DNA of 64,000 nt from the NCBI RefSeq assembly GCF_030908215.1, contig NZ_JAVFJK010000001.1:310001-374000 (forward strand), written 5' to 3'. The translations under genes were made by a program, and so were the position numbers. Shown piece after piece: positions 50,052 to 62,362 of the stretch (within the stretch, counting starts at the first letter, position 1; each line of letters begins with the position of its first letter). The DNA comes from Sinomonas sp. ASV486. GTDB taxonomy: Bacteria > Actinomycetota > Actinomycetes > Actinomycetales > Micrococcaceae. The notes beneath the pieces were generated by a model that was given only the letters and a program-made list of their open reading frames with translations, was not told where the DNA came from and ran no database searches.

Positions 50052-52007
50052 GTGAGCCCCGGCATGCCACAGCACGCCCCCGTCGACCCCAAGCCTGCTT
50101 CCTCCCACAGATCAGGCCCCCAGCAGACCCCGTACTGGGCCTCGATCGCGCGCCTCGGCCCGATCGTGCGGCCCATCGTGCCGCGCCTCCTCGTAGGCCT
50201 CGTTGTCGCCCTTGCGGCGTCCGCCCTTGCCCTTGCGGTGCCGCAGGTGCTGCGCCTTGTCATCGACGAACTCGTGCACAGCGGAACCCAGCCGTCGGCC
50301 GTGTGGGGAGCGGCCGGCGTCGTACTTCTCCTCGGCGTGCTCGAGGCGACCATGATCTACCTGCGGCGCGTGCTCGTGATCGAGCCGAGCATCGGACTCG
50401 AGCGGCAGATGCGCGTTACCATGTACGACCACCTGCAGGACCTCCCCGTCTCATTCCACGACCGCTGGGGCTCAGGCCAGCTGCTCTCGCGCTCGATCGC
50501 GGACCTCGCGTTCCTGCGGCGCTGGCTCGCGTTCGGCGCGATCTTCCTCGTGGTCTCGCTCAGCACCGTGACGCTCGGCGTGGTCCTGCTGTTCACTCTC
50601 TCGTGGCAGCTCGCACTCATCTTCCTCGCGGCGGCCGTGCCGATCATGGTGTACGGCGCGATCTTCCGGCGCCGCTTCTCCCTTGCCACGCGGCGCAGCC
50701 AGGACCAGGCCGGCGACCTCGCCACCACGGTCGAGGAGTCCGTCCACGGCATCCGCGTCCTCAAGGCCTTCGGCCGCGCGCGCGAGGCCCTCGAGGGCTT
50801 CACCGAGCAGGCCCAGCAGCTGCGCGAGACCGAAGTGGCAAAGGCGAGGCACCAGGCCCTGTTCAGCCTCGTCGTGACCCTGCTGCCGGAACTCGCCCTC
50901 GGCACGGGACTCGTGACCGGGATATGGCTTGCCGCGTCGGGGCAGCTGAGCCTCGGATCCCTCGCGGCCTTCTTCGCGACCTCGGCCGCCGTGGCGCAGT
51001 TCGTCGAGGCGAGCGGCATGCTCGTGGGCATGGCCCTGACGGCGAAGACGGCGGTCGACCGCCACTTCGAGGTCATGGACGCCCGCAACACCATCACCGA
51101 TCCTGAGTCGCCGCGGCACGTCACCGCCCCGCGCGGTGCGCTGGCCTTCCGCGACGTCCGGTTCGCGTTCAACGCAGCCGCGCACGACGCCGCGAGCTCG
51201 GCTCGCGCTGCAGCCCCGTCCACCGCGTCGCGACCAGCAGACCCGCCGCGCGACGTCCTGCGCGGCGTGACGCTGGACATCCGACCCGGCGAGACCATGG
51301 CGCTCGTCGGCGCGACGGGCTCGGGAAAGACGACGCTCCTGCAGCTCGTCTCACGCCTCTATGACGTCTCGGGCGGGGCGGTCGAGATCGACGGGATCGA
51401 TGTCCGCGATCTACCCCTCGCTGAGCTGCGCCGGCTCGTCGCGGTCGCGTTCGAAGACACGACGCTGTTCTCGTCCTCGGTGCGCGAGAACGTCCTGCTC
51501 GGCGCGCCCGTGCAGGAGGGCGCGGAGGCCGATCGCCTGCTCGAAGAAGCGCTCGACGTTGCACAGGCCCACTTCGCGCGCTCTCTGCCCGACGGCCTCG
51601 ACACGACGATCGGTGAGGAGGGCCTGAGCCTCTCCGGCGGGCAGCGGCAGCGCATCGCGCTCGCACGCGCCATCGCGGCGCGGCCCTCCGTGCTGATCCT
51701 CGACGATCCCCTCTCCGCGCTCGACATCGCGACGGAGGAGCGCGTGTCCGAGCGGCTCGGCGACGCGCTCGCGCACACCACGACGCTCATCGTGGCGCAC
51801 CGCCCCTCGACCGTGGCTCTCGCGGACCGGGTCGCGCTCCTGCGGGACGGCGTCGTGGAGGACGTCGGAACGCACGCCGAGCTGCTCGCGCGCAGCGAGC
51901 ACTATCGCTGGGTCATCGCGAGCCTCCCCGAGGAGCCGAGCGACCTCGACAGGGAGCACGAACCCGATCTGGACGATTTCCTGCCCGAGGAGGCCGAGTC
52001 CCGGTGA
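50052..52007 (+). CDS. ABC exporter half-transporter 1 (TMD-NBD)
   Basis: 651 residues: six transmembrane helices (about 35-320), then a nucleotide-binding domain with Walker [11 protein letters not shown] loop, signature LSGGQ, Walker [13 protein letters not shown] and H loop IVAHRPST. The linker between VRFAFN and DVLRGV holds ~30 Ala/Ser-rich residues. A typical type IV exporter of the MsbA/Sav1866 class. The GTG at 50052 overlaps its GAGG; the ATG four codons on is an alternative. It is coupled to the second half by ATGA-like overlap (GTGA at 52004), so a heterodimer is likely. Confidence 0.93.
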
Positions 52008-54151
52008 GCCAGCGTCCCACCCGGCCCGGCGGCGTCGTGCGTCGCAACGGCGACCGCAAGAATTCCGGCAGCAGCCCCCAGCCAACCCGCCCCCAGGGCG
52101 AACGTGGCACGCGCGGCGAGGACGCCGTCGACCTCACGCGGGAGGCGAGCCGCACCGTGCGGCGTCGCTCGCTCACACTCCTCGGCAACCTCCTGCGGCC
52201 GGTGCGCGCAAGGCTGTGGGCCACGCTCGCGATGGTGGTCGTCTCGCAGGCCACCCGCGCCGCCGGCCCGGCGATCATCGCGTTCGGGATCGACCGGGCG
52301 CTGCCCGCGTTCGCGTCCGGCGATCCGGCGCTCACGTGGCTCGCCGGCGGCGGGTACCTGGCTGCGGCTCTCATCACGGCCCTGCTGACGGCCGGGTATG
52401 TGACCTCCACGGCGAAGCTGAGCCAGGCGATGCTCCTTGACCTGCGGGTCTGGGTCTTCCGGCACACGCAGAGGCTCAGCCTCGACTTCCATGAGACGTA
52501 CACATCGGGGCGCATCATCTCGCGGCAGACCTCGGACCTCGAGGCGCTGCGCGAACTGCTGGACTCGGGCGTGAGCTCACTCGCGTCCGGCCTGCTGTTC
52601 ATGGCGTTCACGGCGATCACGGTGTTCGCGCTCGACTGGCCGTCGGGGCTCATCATGCTCGCCGCGGCCGTGCCGATGACGCTGATCGCGCGCTGGTACC
52701 AGATACGGTCGCAGCGGGCCTTCAGGGCCTCACGCGTGGTGTCAGCCCGGCTCATCGTGCACTTCGTCGAGACGATGACAGGCATCCGCGCGGTCAAGGC
52801 GTTCCGCAAGGAACGCGCCAACAGCGCCGCTTACGGCAAGCTCGCCGACGACTACGCCGTGGCGACCTATCGGTCCGTCATGCTCAACGGCGTGTTCCAG
52901 CCGGGACTCGTGCTCACGGGAAACGTGACCGTGGCCGTGATCCTGCTCGTCGCCTCGTTCCGCGTCCTTGAGGGGAATCTGGCAGTCGGCGTCCTGCTCG
53001 CCGTCGTGCTCTCCACCAAACGGTTCTTCAGTCCGCTCGAGACGATCGCCATGTTCTACAACTCGTTCCAGAGCGCCCAGGCGGCGCTCGAGAAGGTCTC
53101 CGGCCTGCTCGAGGAGGTTCCCACCGTCCAGCCGCCGCGCAACCCGGTGCCGCTCCCGGCGGCACGGGGCGAGGTGACGTTCGAGTCAGTGGCCTTCTCG
53201 TATGGATCCGGGCCAGAGGTGCTGCCCGAGTTCACGCTCCGGATTCCGGCAGGTCAGACGGTTGCGCTCGTCGGGGCGACCGGTGCCGGGAAGTCGACGC
53301 TCGCGAAGCTCGTGGCGCGGTTCTACGACCCCTCAGCGGGCGCAGTGAGGCTCGACGGCGTCGACCTCCGCGAGCTCTCGACCGCGGACCTGCGGCGCGC
53401 CATCGTGATGGTCACGCAGGAGGCGTTCCTGTTCTCCGGGTCCGTGGCGGACAACATTGCCCTCGGGCGGCCGGACGCCTCCCGCGCTGAGATCCAGGCC
53501 GCGGCGCGGTCTGTCGGCGCGCACGAGTTCATCTCAGCGCTGCCGGACGGCTACGACACCGATGTGACAAAACGCGGCGGCCGCGTCTCGGCGGGCCAGC
53601 GTCAGCTCATCTCCTTTGCGCGGGCGGTGCTGGCGGCCCCGGCGGTGCTCATCCTCGACGAGGCCACGAGCTCACTGGACATCCCCTCGGAGCGGCTCGT
53701 CCAGACGGGCCTCGCGCGACTCCTGGGCGGGACTGCCGTCGGCTCTGCCCGAGACACTGCGGGCGACACTCACGCACGCGGGCGTGCGGACGACGGCGGC
53801 GGGGCGCCTCAGGGTGGACCGCCGCCACGGGTGGCTGGTCGGGACGAGCAGGACAGCCGTCCCAGCGCACCTGCGGATCACCGTGGCGTGGCCGCTTCCG
53901 CACCTCGCCCGACTGACGGACAGGAGGCTCGACCCGGCGTTCAGGGTGGTCGCCCTGGCGCCCAGTCAACTAGCTCCGACGCGCGGACGGCGATCATCAT
54001 CGCCCACCGGCTGTCAACGGTCGAGATCGCTGACCGTGTGCTCGTCGTGGACGGCGGGCGCATCGTCGAGGACGGGACACCTGCGGAACTCTTGGCCGGC
54101 GGAGGACGCTTCGCTGCCCTGCATGGAGCGTGGCGCGACTCGCTCGTCTAG
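52004..54151 (+). CDS. ABC exporter half-transporter 2, with an insertion in the NBD
   Basis: 715 residues: six helices (about 55-330), then the NBD with Walker [10 protein letters not shown], signature VSAGQRQ (degenerate LSGGQ), Walker [13 protein letters not shown] and H loop IIIAHRLST. An ~84-residue insertion (577-660, Gly/Arg/Asp-rich, 53732-53984) lies between the D loop and the beta strand leading to the H loop, where related exporters have only a few residues. The insertion DNA contains the ACGACGGCGG hairpin core. Transport is predicted outward, substrate unknown. The GTG overlaps the stop of half 1. Confidence 0.9.
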
Positions 54152-59500: not shown

Positions 59501-59526
59501 TGCCCCGGACCATCAGGTCCGGGGCA
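59501..59526. terminator. Perfect hairpin terminator, TGCCCCGGACC stem
   Basis: TGCCCCGGACC and GGTCCGGGGCA (11 bp, ATCA loop). It lies 105 nt beyond the peptide gene stop and 112 nt before the ATPase start, and probably insulates the two. Confidence 0.8.
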
Positions 59527-59538
59527 CACACCCAGCCT

Positions 59539-59579
59539 GTGTCAGCGCTCCCCCACAGCTAGCGTTCTCGCGCTGACAC
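59539..59579. terminator. Hairpin GTGTCAGCGC downstream of the peptide gene
   Basis: GTGTCAGCGC and GCGCTGACAC (10 bp, 21-nt loop) with GGTTTTTG to its right on the plus strand. It could end transcription of the peptide gene from the left-reading promoter or of something reading right. Confidence 0.55.
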
Positions 59580-59631: not shown

Positions 59632-59832
59632 TCAGAAGCCAGCGGCGTTGACCTTCATGGGATCAGGCCAGTTGCCGATGGCGACGGGAGCCTGCATCGG
59701 ATCGGGCCAGTTGCCGATCGCGCTCACCTTCATGGGGTCGGGCCAGTTGCCGATCGCCGTCGGTGTGCCGGCAATGCCGCTGATGGCAAGGGCTCCTCCG
59801 AGCGCGACGGTGGCAATCAGTTTCTTCAGCAT
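59632..59832 (-). CDS. Secreted repeat-peptide precursor (three IGNWPDPM units)
   Basis: A 66-residue precursor. It starts MLKKLIATVALGGALAISGIAG, a Sec-type signal peptide with two Lys and a hydrophobic core, with processing expected around TPTA. The rest is three near-identical units IGNWPDPMKV, IGNWPDPMQA, IGNWPDPMKV with short AS/APV spacers, ending NAAGF. I start at the ATG at 59832, 7 nt after AAAGGA; an ATG two codons upstream sits almost on the ribosome site. No Cys, no lipobox. I know no family with this repeat. It is divergent from the HTH-TPR regulator, with a -35/-10 pair (59953-59925) and shared operator motifs between them. Best reading: a propeptide released outside the cell. 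Confidence 0.7.
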   Translation of the reverse strand: MLKKLIATVALGGALAISGIAGTPTAIGNWPDPMKVSAIGNWPDPMQAPVAIGNWPDPMKVNAAGF

Positions 59833-59908
59833 CTTCATGTCCTTTGAGAGTCGGTCCCGATGTCTTGCACGGGACGGGGTGCGTCCGCTGGGGCAGAGCG
59901 TGCTTTGT

Positions 59909-59921
59909 CATGATTGACATG
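59909..59921. promoter_or_regulatory. Operator candidate CATGATTGACATG, near the peptide start
   Basis: Part of the palindrome TGTCA-TGAT-TGACA (59906-59919). It overlaps the predicted start point of the peptide promoter. An almost identical copy is exactly 70 bp away at 59979. Confidence 0.55.
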
Positions 59922-59924
59922 CCC

Positions 59925-59953
59925 AGTAAAATGGGTTCCACATGGCCTGTCAA
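59925..59953 (-). promoter_or_regulatory. Sigma-70-type promoter of the peptide gene
   Basis: On the minus strand TTGACA (59953-59948), a 17-nt spacer, then TTTACT (59930-59925). The predicted start is about 85 nt before the peptide ATG. The -10 end is next to operator copy 1. Confidence 0.6.
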
Positions 59954-59978
59954 GGAAGACCGTCGACCACAGACGCTC

Positions 59979-59991
59979 CATGATGGACATG
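59979..59991. promoter_or_regulatory. Operator candidate CATGATGGACATG, near the regulator
   Basis: Matches copy 1 at 12 of 13 bases and overlaps a TCCAT-G-ATGGA palindrome (59978-59988). It lies 57-69 nt before the regulator start, so the regulator probably controls both genes, including its own. Confidence 0.55.
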
Positions 59992-60047
59992 ACGCATGCG
60001 TAAAAGCCCGGGTTCACGATGTCCCGGGCGGGGGCCAGGAGGTCAGA

Positions 60048-61331
60048 GTGGGCAGTGGATTCGGCGAAAAGCTGCGGGCCGAGAGGCTGGATCGCGGGCT
60101 GACACAGGCGGAGCTGGGCAAGGACCTGTACTCACCCAGCTACATCTCCCTGCTCGAGACCGGACGCCGCGAACCGACCGCCGAGGTCATCCAAGAACTC
60201 GCCCGTCGCCTCCAGCTGGCGCCCAAGGCCCTCGAGGCCTGGAGCCAGCCGGTGAGCGCCAATGATGCCGAGTACGTGCTCGCAGGGCTCTACGCCCGCC
60301 AGGCGTGGGACCTGCGTGACTACGCCCAGGCGGCCAGCCACGCCGCGACCGCAGCACAGTTCGCGCTCGAGGGCAAGAACAACAGCGCGTGGTGGAACAT
60401 GACGTACATGCAGGCCGAGTGCCTCATGAAGCAGGGCGAGCTCGCCGAATGCCAGCGGATCGTCCAGCATCTGCTCGAGCATCCCATCGTGGCGGAATCA
60501 GCCGGGCTTGCCGTGCGTGCGCGGCAGATGCTCGCTGCGGTGTGCCACGGTCTCGGCCAACTCGGAGCGGCGGTCGAGCATGCACGTGAGGCCGTGCGCC
60601 TCGGTGCCCAGCTTCCCGCGGGATCCACCATCTACATCGGCGCCCTCCGCGCCCTCATTGCAGCCCTCGCAGAAAGCGGCCGCCTCGAGGAGGCCTGGGA
60701 CCAATGCCGCATCCTCGCGACGCTCATCGACGAGGACTCGATGGGACAGCTCGCGGGCGAGGTCGAATGGGTGATCGGCAACGTCGCATTCATGCGCGCC
60801 GACTACGAGGAGGGTGTCAAGCACCACGAACGGGCCGCCAAGCTCCTCTCCCCAGCCAACGACATCGAGCTGTGGGCACGTTTCAACAAGGCCTCCGCGG
60901 CAGTGAGGCTCTCAGGCGGGATCGTGGAGCCCGAGACGCTCGCCGCGATCGAACGCGCCGAGCTCGCCCTGAGCATTGTGGGCGGATCCCGTTCCGAGCA
61001 GCTCGAGGTGCAATTCATCCGCGCACGGTGGCTCTATCTCAACGGCCAGATCCCCGAAGCCATTGAGCTGCTTCGCACGATCCACGCCGAGAAGGGCGCG
61101 CTGGGACGCCACACCGCAGGCGAGGTCGCGCTGCTCTACGGTCGCGCACTCAAGGCACTCGGCGAGGACGAGCAAGCCCTCGAACTCCTCAAGGACGCGC
61201 GCGAGCAGTTCAGCTACGCGGGCGCTGCCGACAAGGTCCAGCAGACCATGGACGCGATCCTCGAGATCCGTCTGGCCGCCCAGCGCGCCGAAAGGACGGC
61301 GGAGCAGGGCACCGCGACCCACAGAAGCTGA
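60048..61331 (+). CDS. XRE-HTH/TPR transcriptional regulator (RRNPP-like architecture)
   Basis: 427 residues. An N-terminal XRE-type HTH spans about 5-60 (GEKLRAERLDRGLTQAELGKDLYSPSYISLLETGRREPTAEVIQELARRL). The remaining ~350 residues form tetratricopeptide-like helical repeats (LYARQAWDLRDYAQAASHAATAA, AECLMKQGELAECQRIV, GLGQLGAAVEHAREAV, EWVIGNVAFMRADYEEGVKHHERAAKLL, WLYLNGQIPEAIELLRTIHAE, YGRALKALGEDEQALELLKDA). HTH plus TPR is the layout of peptide-sensing Rgg, PlcR and NprR regulators. GTG start with AGGAGG 5 nt upstream. It is divergent from the secreted repeat-peptide gene, its likely ligand source. Confidence 0.8.
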   Translation: MGSGFGEKLRAERLDRGLTQAELGKDLYSPSYISLLETGRREPTAEVIQELARRLQLAPKALEAWSQPVSANDAEYVLAGLYARQAWDLRDYAQAASHAATAAQFALEGKNNSAWWNMTYMQAECLMKQGELAECQRIVQHLLEHPIVAESAGLAVRARQMLAAVCHGLGQLGAAVEHAREAVRLGAQLPAGSTIYIGALRALIAALAESGRLEEAWDQCRILATLIDEDSMGQLAGEVEWVIGNVAFMRADYEEGVKHHERAAKLLSPANDIELWARFNKASAAVRLSGGIVEPETLAAIERAELALSIVGGSRSEQLEVQFIRARWLYLNGQIPEAIELLRTIHAEKGALGRHTAGEVALLYGRALKALGEDEQALELLKDAREQFSYAGAADKVQQTMDAILEIRLAAQRAERTAEQGTATHRS

Positions 61332-61369: not shown

Positions 61370-62362
61370 TCAGGCGAACGTTCGGCCGGTGAGCCGCTCG
61401 TAGGCCTCGACGTAGCGGGCGCGGGTGCGCTCAACGACGTCGGTGGGCAGTGCGGGCGGCTCCCCGCCCGCGGCGCGGTCCCAGCCGGACTCGGCCGAGG
61501 TCAGCCAGTCACGGACAAACTGCTTGTCGAACGAGGGCTGGGCGTGCCCGGGCTCCCACGTCTCAACGTCCCAGAAGCGCGACGAGTCGGGCGTGAGCAC
61601 CTCGTCGCCCAGGGTGATGTAGCCGGTGGTCGAATCGACGCCGAACTCGACCTTCGTGTCCGCGAGGATGATACCGCGCGCTCGCGCGATCCCCTCGGCC
61701 TCGCGGTACAGCTCGAGCGTCAGGTCCCGCAGCTGGGCGGCGGCGTCGTCCCCCACCATACCGGTGACGTCCTCGTAGGTGATGTTCTCGTCGTGCTCGC
61801 CGTACTCCGCCTTGGCGGAGGGCGTGAAGATCGCCTCGGGCAGACGCGAGCCGTCCACGAGCCCCTCTGGCAGTGGGATCTCGCACACGGTACCCGACTC
61901 CCGGTACTCGGCGAGTCCGGAGCCCGTGAGGTAGCCGCGGGCGATGCACTCGACGGGGTACATCTCGAGGCGGCGGCAGATCATGGCGCGGCCCGCCACC
62001 TCGGCGGGGACACCGTCGTCGACCGTCGAACCGAGCACGTGGTTCGGCACGTTGAGCTGCTCGAACCACCACAGGCTCAGCTGGGTGAGGATGCGGCCCT
62101 TGTCCGGGATGGTGCTGGAGAGGACGTAGTCGTAGGCGGAGATGCGGTCGCTCGCGACGACGAGCACTTCACTGGACTCGCCGGGCTCGGCCTCCGCGGG
62201 CTCGTAGAGGTCACGGACCTTGCCTGAGTAGATGTGCCGCCACCCCGGCAGCTCGACGGCCTCAGCCTGGTACCCCTTGCTGCCGACGTTCTCGAGGTTA
62301 CTGACGTTCTCGAGGTTACTGACGTTCTCGAGGTTGCCGACGTTCTCGACGCTGTCCATCAT
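61370..62362 (-). CDS. purC: Phosphoribosylaminoimidazole-succinocarboxamide synthase PurC
   Basis: 330 residues. SAICAR synthetase of the purine pathway, condensing CAIR with aspartate. Motifs: GWRHIYSGKVRDLYE, VASDRISAYDYVL, PVECIARGYLTGSGL, ILADTKVEFG and DEVLTPDSSRFW. The N-terminal ~28 residues (ENVGNLENVSNLENVS...) come from an 18-bp tandem repeat and lie before the normal start of the fold. The ATG at 62362 overlaps the purD stop, with GGGAGC upstream. Confidence 0.95.
   Translation of the reverse strand: MMDSVENVGNLENVSNLENVSNLENVGSKGYQAEAVELPGWRHIYSGKVRDLYEPAEAEPGESSEVLVVASDRISAYDYVLSSTIPDKGRILTQLSLWWFEQLNVPNHVLGSTVDDGVPAEVAGRAMICRRLEMYPVECIARGYLTGSGLAEYRESGTVCEIPLPEGLVDGSRLPEAIFTPSAKAEYGEHDENITYEDVTGMVGDDAAAQLRDLTLELYREAEGIARARGIILADTKVEFGVDSTTGYITLGDEVLTPDSSRFWDVETWEPGHAQPSFDKQFVRDWLTSAESGWDRAAGGEPPALPTDVVERTRARYVEAYERLTGRTFA
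62285..62350 (-). repeat. 18-bp tandem repeat in the 5' end of purC (3.7 units)
   Basis: Units at 62285, 62303, 62321 and a partial one at 62339, each GACGTTCTCGAGGTTACT or a one- to two-base variant on the plus strand. In purC they encode ENVSNL hexapeptides. The 18-bp period keeps the frame, so copy number could vary freely. Confidence 0.9.

Follow-up and report, generated by a model that had tools for sequence, protein, structure and literature searches.

The subject of this analysis is a pair of divergent genes in a stretch of 64,000 nucleotides from Sinomonas sp. ASV486 (contig NZ_JAVFJK010000001.1, positions 310,001 to 374,000), which is referred to below as the window and whose first letter is position 1. 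One gene encodes a small peptide precursor and the other a regulator with a helix-turn-helix (HTH) and tetratricopeptide-like repeats (TPR). The precursor gene (59632..59832, minus strand) specifies 66 residues, MLKKLIATVALGGALAISGIAGTPTAIGNWPDPMKVSAIGNWPDPMQAPVAIGNWPDPMKVNAAGF, with a Sec-like signal and three copies of the core IGNWPDPM. Its start is the second ATG, with AAAGGA upstream; an ATG at 59838 would give 68 residues, and orthologous precursors mostly start at the equivalent MLKK or MFKK. The N-terminus, MLKKLIATVALGGALAISGIAG, is Sec-like by a measure of hydrophobicity and charge, not by SignalP. Residues 1–26 (59755..59832, minus strand; MLKK...SGIAGTPTA) make up the signal sequence, with a hydrophobic core and a positive n-region on this scripted measure, and a short pro-region. 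The cores follow, on the same strand, at 59731..59754 (then K), 59695..59718 (then Q) and 59656..59679 (then K), and all three copies are exact. Seven-residue words repeated three times are also present in other long GC-rich frames of the window, and therefore the repeat alone would not have decided the case.

The regulator gene (60048..61331, plus strand) starts with GTG preceded by AGGAGG and encodes 427 residues, an HTH followed by eight TPR-like helix pairs. Residues 5–64 (60060..60239, plus strand) form an XRE-type HTH (Pfam HTH_3, E=5.5e-11; HTH_31, E=8.5e-11), and the repeats match TPR_12, TPR_14 and TPR_19; the HTH and TPR matches all exceed the Pfam cut-offs. The TPR superhelix, presumed to hold a peptide-binding groove, spans residues 71–391 (60258..61220, plus strand). 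It is present in the AlphaFold2 model, whose mean predicted local distance difference test score (pLDDT) is 80.6, with block values of 72–96 over residues 71–410 and of only 38–51 in the HTH part. This is the architecture of the RRNPP(A) receptors, which share a TPR superhelix and, in all but Rap, an N-terminal HTH. A profile of the family aligns with PlcR through the HTH into the TPRs (E=7e-11, profile positions 3–204 on chain positions 4–203); designed repeat proteins score as well as or better than PlcR against the same profile. Three tryptophans, W116, W241 and W276, show at least 90% conservation in both the family and the class-level set, and we infer that they form a pocket for the tryptophan-proline (WP) core of the peptide.

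Between the genes, a sigma-70-like promoter, TTGACA-N17-TTTACT, reads on the peptide strand, its -35 element TTGACA at 59948..59953 and its -10 element TTTACT at 59925..59930 (both minus strand, 17-bp spacer); the -10 element is TTTACAAT in Arthrobacter. The repeat frame with its Sec-like signal, the divergent XRE-TPR regulator and the promoter had all been read from the letters in the initial annotation, and each was borne out. The same annotation had pointed to a sequence, CATGATNGACATG, present in two copies 70 bp apart, one as CATGATTGACATG (59909..59921) and one as CATGATGGACATG (59979..59991), neither assigned to a strand. The pair does exist: with at most one mismatch the window holds two copies where 0.08 are expected, and two were found in 1 of 100 shuffles. 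As a conserved operator it was rejected, since it is intact in only two of 15 Sinomonas genomes, both of this species, and in 0 of 80 orthologue loci, so that the pair is probably not the operator.

Conservation of the pair and of its probable control site

A search of genome contigs found 126 relatives of the regulator, 80 of which were kept, and 15 orthologue loci from 15 Sinomonas genomes were added; the resulting 95 loci include some genomes counted twice. The window regulator is 90–95% identical to those of 13 other genomes of the genus and 99.8% identical to the one from another genome of its own species, and the named relatives at 90–93% regulator identity are Sinomonas. Co-occurrence of peptide and regulator in related genomes had been set beforehand as a test, and it proved complete. 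A small frame with IGNWPDP or VGNWPDP lies divergently just upstream of the regulator in 80 of 80 kept loci and in 15 of 15 Sinomonas genomes, so that the adjacent small propeptide gene that characterises RRNPP(A) systems is found at each of them.

The 95 loci hold 85 distinct precursors with 237 cores, one to six per precursor. Position 1 of the core is I in 209, V in 27 and T in one, position 3 is N in 234 and I in three, and position 8 is M in 221, A in 12 and V in four. The pattern used for counting fixed G2, W4, P5, D6 and P7 and admitted I, V, T or M at position 1 and N or I at position 3, so that these figures are only a partial test of constancy; degenerate copies such as IGNLPDPM (L090) and IGNSPDS (L008) fall outside the count. 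The codons of the core vary freely (GGC/GGT/GGA/GGG, CCC/CCG/CCT/CCA, GAC/GAT), as expected if it is the peptide rather than the DNA that is kept.

A uniform test for frames combining a Sec-like signal with a WP motif was applied to three sets, the 80 orthologue loci, a set of 52 and a class-level set of 32. Such a frame lies upstream of the receptor in 79/80, 24/52 and 14/32 loci, respectively, compared with 0/80, 2/52 and 1/32 downstream of it and with 9/400, 0/255 and 3/160 in shuffled upstream DNA. In the orthologue set the pairing is thus in excess of chance. An earlier open reading frame filter on paralogue loci was too loose for use.

The intergenic region of the orthologues contains a conserved inverted repeat, which in the window reads TTGACA-N5-AGTAAA (TTGACATGCCCAGTAAA, 59914..59930, no strand assigned) and has the consensus TTRACA-N5-WGTAAA. 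It overlaps the left CATGATNGACATG copy and, in the peptide promoter, the -10 and start region; the -35 box, recognised in 70 of 80 orthologue loci, is always 16 nucleotides from it. The consensus occurs upstream in 79/80, 14/15 and 18/26 loci of the syntenic sets, and in 0 of 10 paralogue and 0 of 8 other loci. Its exact form is present once per genome in 21 of 25 genomes, always at the peptide–regulator locus, and is absent from the other four. A relaxed search, allowing three mismatches, placed it at the locus in 15 of 15 genomes of genus g9 and gave one further match overall; this single off-locus match was set aside as chance level, the reversed control pattern having given four. From its position and conservation, the repeat is probably the operator of the peptide promoter.

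In other genera the gene pair is kept at the same place with an altered core. Within the fetched flank, the regulator has purC as a neighbour in 78/80 and 15/15 orthologue loci and, among 39 more divergent loci (L128–L166), in 25; the cores found at this locus include VGNWPDPS, VGNWPDAV (four and five copies), VGNWPDAS (six), AVGIWPNS, PGIWPDS, ATGNWPNV, VWIWPDSV, VGEWPHS, VGDWPH (six and eight copies) and the leaderless GIGDWPHA. Over 21 loci, chosen by hand with one core each, the difference between peptides correlates with that between receptors (r 0.81), and the partial correlation corrected for purC divergence is 0.65, a value reached in 0 of 2000 permutations. As far as sequence comparison can tell, this shows that peptide and receptor evolve together. 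Beside a 38%-identical receptor, the L155 precursor carries PAVGNWPDR five times; in the neighbouring genome (L154), most copies are NWPAT. A divergent AWPSLA frame in L144, L163 and L165 was dropped as a candidate, being by eye the antisense of a conserved upstream frame.

Related receptors and precursors

One group of homologues, of about 340–370 residues, begins past the HTH and forms a single clade in a quick tree (Shimodaira–Hasegawa-like approximate likelihood ratio support of 97). L103 stands apart from this clade; it counts as TPR-only in the tree, yet an HTH-coding stretch upstream of it ends at a stop, and it is probably a broken HTH gene. Of 30 HTH-less receptors, 26 are accompanied by a divergent precursor with Sec-like signal and WP motif (27 of 31 when rows are counted, one place being represented twice), and a further, 27th pair occurs at L161. 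These precursors mostly end in a single core, such as IGWWPN, IGWWPD, VGWWPH, IGNWPL, GIWPY, VGSWPY, NNWPY or MGNWPH. The HTH-less loci with WP peptides are L161, L162, L164, L182, L198, L199, L236–L240, L242, L245–L247 and L249–L255. A GGDEF-EAL gene is found in 22 of 28 fetched HTH-less loci (21 of 27, since L164 and L253 are one place) and in 0 of 187 HTH-TPR loci, some of which repeat one place; the flanks reach 1.5–3 kb, so that absences are partly due to reach. Pfam confirms both GGDEF and EAL in seven of nine neighbours tested and in addition at L182, and at L240 the GGDEF-EAL frame overlaps the receptor end. We infer that the HTH-less receptors act on the turnover of cyclic di-GMP (c-di-GMP).

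Beyond Micrococcaceae, a class-level profile search gave matches in 13 of 345 genomes at E 1e-30, and a search of family f25 gave matches in 22 of 121 genomes at E 1e-25. Family f25 is probably Streptomycetaceae; its receptor L194 shares 84% identity with a Streptomyces plasmid protein, the one match among plasmid records. In the fetched stretch of that plasmid record, positions 1700–2600 hold one WP frame and no Sec-type WP precursor. Precursors ending in I(D/E/G)WP occur among the f25 homologues, and the Sec-type frames near f25 and class-level receptors include ones that end in MLGSIDWP, QQASIEWP, GSMIDWP, DAEIGWP, SDLEWP or GGDIDWP. L219 has a five-copy IEWP precursor; in L189, from a different family within the same order, the precursor has three copies of VGGSWPT. 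The initial annotation had expected several peptide copies per precursor molecule; this stands as the rule at the Micrococcaceae purC locus and fails for many other relatives, which carry a single C-terminal copy. The gene order varies as well, the peptide gene being co-directional with the receptor in five class-level loci (L208, L212, L214, L215 and L217). The class-level count of 14/32 includes three Micrococcaceae loci (L188, L198 and L199, two of them positive), which leaves 12 of 29 outside the family, or 11 of 29 if L211, by eye probably a false positive, is removed. L195 (ALNWPKCC) is doubtful as a WP precursor, while L194, L196 and L209 have a WP peptide end and no recognised Sec signal. 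For many class-level homologues the uniform test thus found no peptide.

Peptide genes also occur on their own. The peptide-only loci (L167–L180, L281 and L282), which have no family receptor within the fetched 2 kb or so on either side, often encode frames without a Sec-like signal, and many end exactly in the core of the resident pair. They include the four-copy L167, L168–L170 and the tiny frames MSSIGNWPDPV, MYSIGNWPDPM and MNRIGNWPDPM; some are only 11 codons long, and a frame of 394 codons (L172) also ends in ANIGNWPDPM. In G243, which has an HTH-less receptor with IGWWPD, an orphan carries IGNWPDPM, IGWWPD and again IGNWPDPM; in G132, whose HTH-less receptor is paired with IGWWPN, an orphan carries IGWWPN and IGNWPDPM. 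G191 and G218 have VGNWPDP both at the main locus and in orphans. In genus g9, where 23 genomes were searched for the I and V forms, orphans were found in six (G022, G132, G191, G218, G227 and G243), in each of which position 1 agrees with the main locus; the pattern that located the Sinomonas orphans admitted I only, so that they are not a test of such matching. This agreement between orphan and resident is taken as the best evidence that the cores themselves are the functional units.

A proposed signalling circuit and its alternatives

We consider it likely that the precursor yields a peptide pheromone, that the regulator is its receptor, and that the two work in the manner of the RRNPP systems of Bacillota. 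An actinobacterial counterpart of these systems had been proposed from the window, and the proposal is supported by the co-occurrence of the two genes, by the co-divergence of peptide and receptor, and by the extension to TPR-only receptors and to other families. The term RRNPP-like refers to its working and not to proven membership by descent or by binding in the groove. The precursor would be exported by Sec and cut by extracellular proteases into several peptides of about eight residues, IGNWPDPM with or without flanking residues, which an oligopeptide ATP-binding cassette (ABC) importer would return to the cell. The genome has eight genes of SBP_bac_5 importer proteins, which do not by themselves show import of the IGNWPDPM peptide. 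Inside the cell, the peptide would bind the TPR groove of the cytoplasmic HTH-TPR protein, its invariant WP core lying in the conserved tryptophan-rich pocket, and the regulator would bind the TTRACA-N5-WGTAAA repeat that overlies -10 and start in the divergent promoter of the peptide gene.

The free regulator may repress the peptide promoter and the bound peptide relieve this repression, in a positive feedback. Almost as likely, though less favoured, is the opposite sign: the peptide-bound regulator may repress, in a homeostatic negative feedback, or the regulator may activate. It competes with this one step and not with the pairing. Repression with or without bound peptide would be compatible with the position of the site over the -10 and start, and its single occurrence per genome with a homeostatic loop.

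Several observations weigh against a pheromone and its receptor. The best structural matches of the model (Foldseek, VIA-align) are eukaryotic LGN-type TPR proteins, above the RRNPP receptors, and therefore the fold alone does not assign the family; among the 50 matches listed, nine are natural bacterial ones, eight of them NprR or Rap. The partial correlation with the peptide is nearly as clear for the HTH part of the receptor (0.58) as for the TPR part (0.64), so that co-divergence does not locate the binding site. No peptide was recognised at seven syntenic homologues (L139, L140, L144, L145, L147, L163 and L165), and none was found alongside the Sinomonas paralogues L103–L112, which are possibly listeners without a signal of their own. 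The precursors of L146, L152, L166 and L183 and most orphans are without a Sec-like signal and are hard to fit to one export route. Finally, in the genomes searched the full conserved site turned up only at its own locus, and therefore no downstream regulon is visible.

The leaderless precursors bear directly on an alternative in which the peptide, although the true ligand, acts within the cell that makes it. The signal sequence would then serve clearance or membrane delivery, and the cell would gauge its own capacity for synthesis or export instead of its neighbours. Such a role would suit the many orphans of this kind, MSSIGNWPDPV, MYSIGNWPDPM, MNRIGNWPDPM and the four-copy L167 among them, and the leaderless precursors at the g10 and g32 loci. 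It seems improbable in view of the Sec-like precursor in all but one of the 80 orthologue main loci and of the same type of precursor beside most HTH-less receptors (26 of 30).

It is very unlikely that the repeat protein is a secreted effector, either an antimicrobial or a multivalent binder of cell wall or sugar, with the HTH-TPR gene merely its regulator. A secreted repeat protein beside a dedicated regulator would fit this reading too, but peptide and receptor diverge together while their locus stays the same, a single C-terminal copy suffices in many relatives, and a partner of this kind also accompanies HTH-less TPR proteins; the conserved neighbours found are purC and an ABC exporter, with no evident immunity gene. 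Chance or a sequence artefact, which the threefold seven-residue repeats in other GC-rich frames of the window might have suggested, can be dismissed given the presence of the peptide frame at every kept locus and in every Sinomonas genome and given the downstream and shuffled controls.

Returning to the pheromone reading, we favour on balance a wider form of it, a class-wide family of ribosomal 'WP' pheromones in actinomycetes. This would comprise HTH-TPR autoregulators and HTH-less TPR receptors beside GGDEF-EAL enzymes, through which secreted peptides would set c-di-GMP. The additional peptide-only genes, some with the cores of both branches in a single precursor, would supply the two receptor types under the control of other promoters, and diversification of the peptide in place would have created lineage-private channels.

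Relation to described systems and neighbouring features

Cytoplasmic peptide quorum sensing of the TPR type has been described for Bacillota. The PlcR-PapR system of the Bacillus cereus group resembles the present pair in its HTH and TPR receptor, with which the family profile aligns from the HTH into the TPRs, and in PapR, a small exported precursor encoded next to PlcR. It differs in that the present receptor is actinobacterial and has 427 residues against 293 for the PlcR chain, and in the WP core, the mostly tandem copies at the locus, the divergent gene order and the one visible site per genome found here. NprR of the Bacillus NprR-NprX system is only 10% identical to the present receptor and NprX is a different peptide; since eukaryotic TPR proteins such as LGN score higher, the NprR match reflects the common superhelix. 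Streptococcal Rgg-SHP and ComR-ComS combine an HTH-TPR receptor with a short precursor that, like the leaderless forms described above, possibly has no Sec signal; against ComR, the family profile matches the HTH only, and both peptides and phylum differ. The arbitrium system AimR-AimP of Bacillus phages likewise joins an HTH-TPR receptor to an adjacent exported propeptide. It differs in its carrier, as no match to the present system was found in 50,697 phage records and viral contigs gave only three short matches in the HTH region. From Rap-Phr, including the systems of phages Phi3T and Phi105 (PMC11343458), the HTH-less branch differs in its WP peptides and its place near GGDEF-EAL genes, and the HTH-TPR relatives differ in holding up to eight peptide copies (L142).

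Among the titles and abstracts listed in searches of the open literature, with subscription papers and preprints outside the scope, no description of the peptide or of such an actinobacterial system was found. The signals of Actinomycetota are typically small molecules according to a survey (PMC10075063), and the main text of an account of the evolution of the RRNPP family contains no word beginning actinobacteri or actinomycet (PMC9765709). The family thus appears to be undescribed. Its newest aspect is breadth, with WP peptides beyond Micrococcaceae and with a transcriptional branch as well as one tied to c-di-GMP genes. Found in Arthrobacter, Sinomonas and probable Streptomycetaceae, the family would open up a phylum of soil-dwelling and antibiotic-producing bacteria to the study of peptide communication, and the GGDEF-EAL link of one branch would connect peptide signalling with c-di-GMP. 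The cores are short and readable from genomes, so that they could be synthesised and tested at once.

Some minor features of the surroundings may be added. Six of the 15 Sinomonas genomes together carry ten extra regulator copies (L103–L112), 39–69% identical. A relative of the ABC exporter encoded at 52004–54151 of the window is in the fetched flank of 75 of the 80 orthologue loci (L008–L087), and a relative of the window P-type ATPase in that of three. Two inverted repeats, noted by eye at 59501–59526 and 59539–59579, lie in the gap that separates the peptide gene from that of the P-type ATPase; on the plus strand, a run of T comes after the second. A short tandem repeat, ENVGNLENVSNLENVSNLENVG, is present at the N-terminus of the purC frame (62282–62362).

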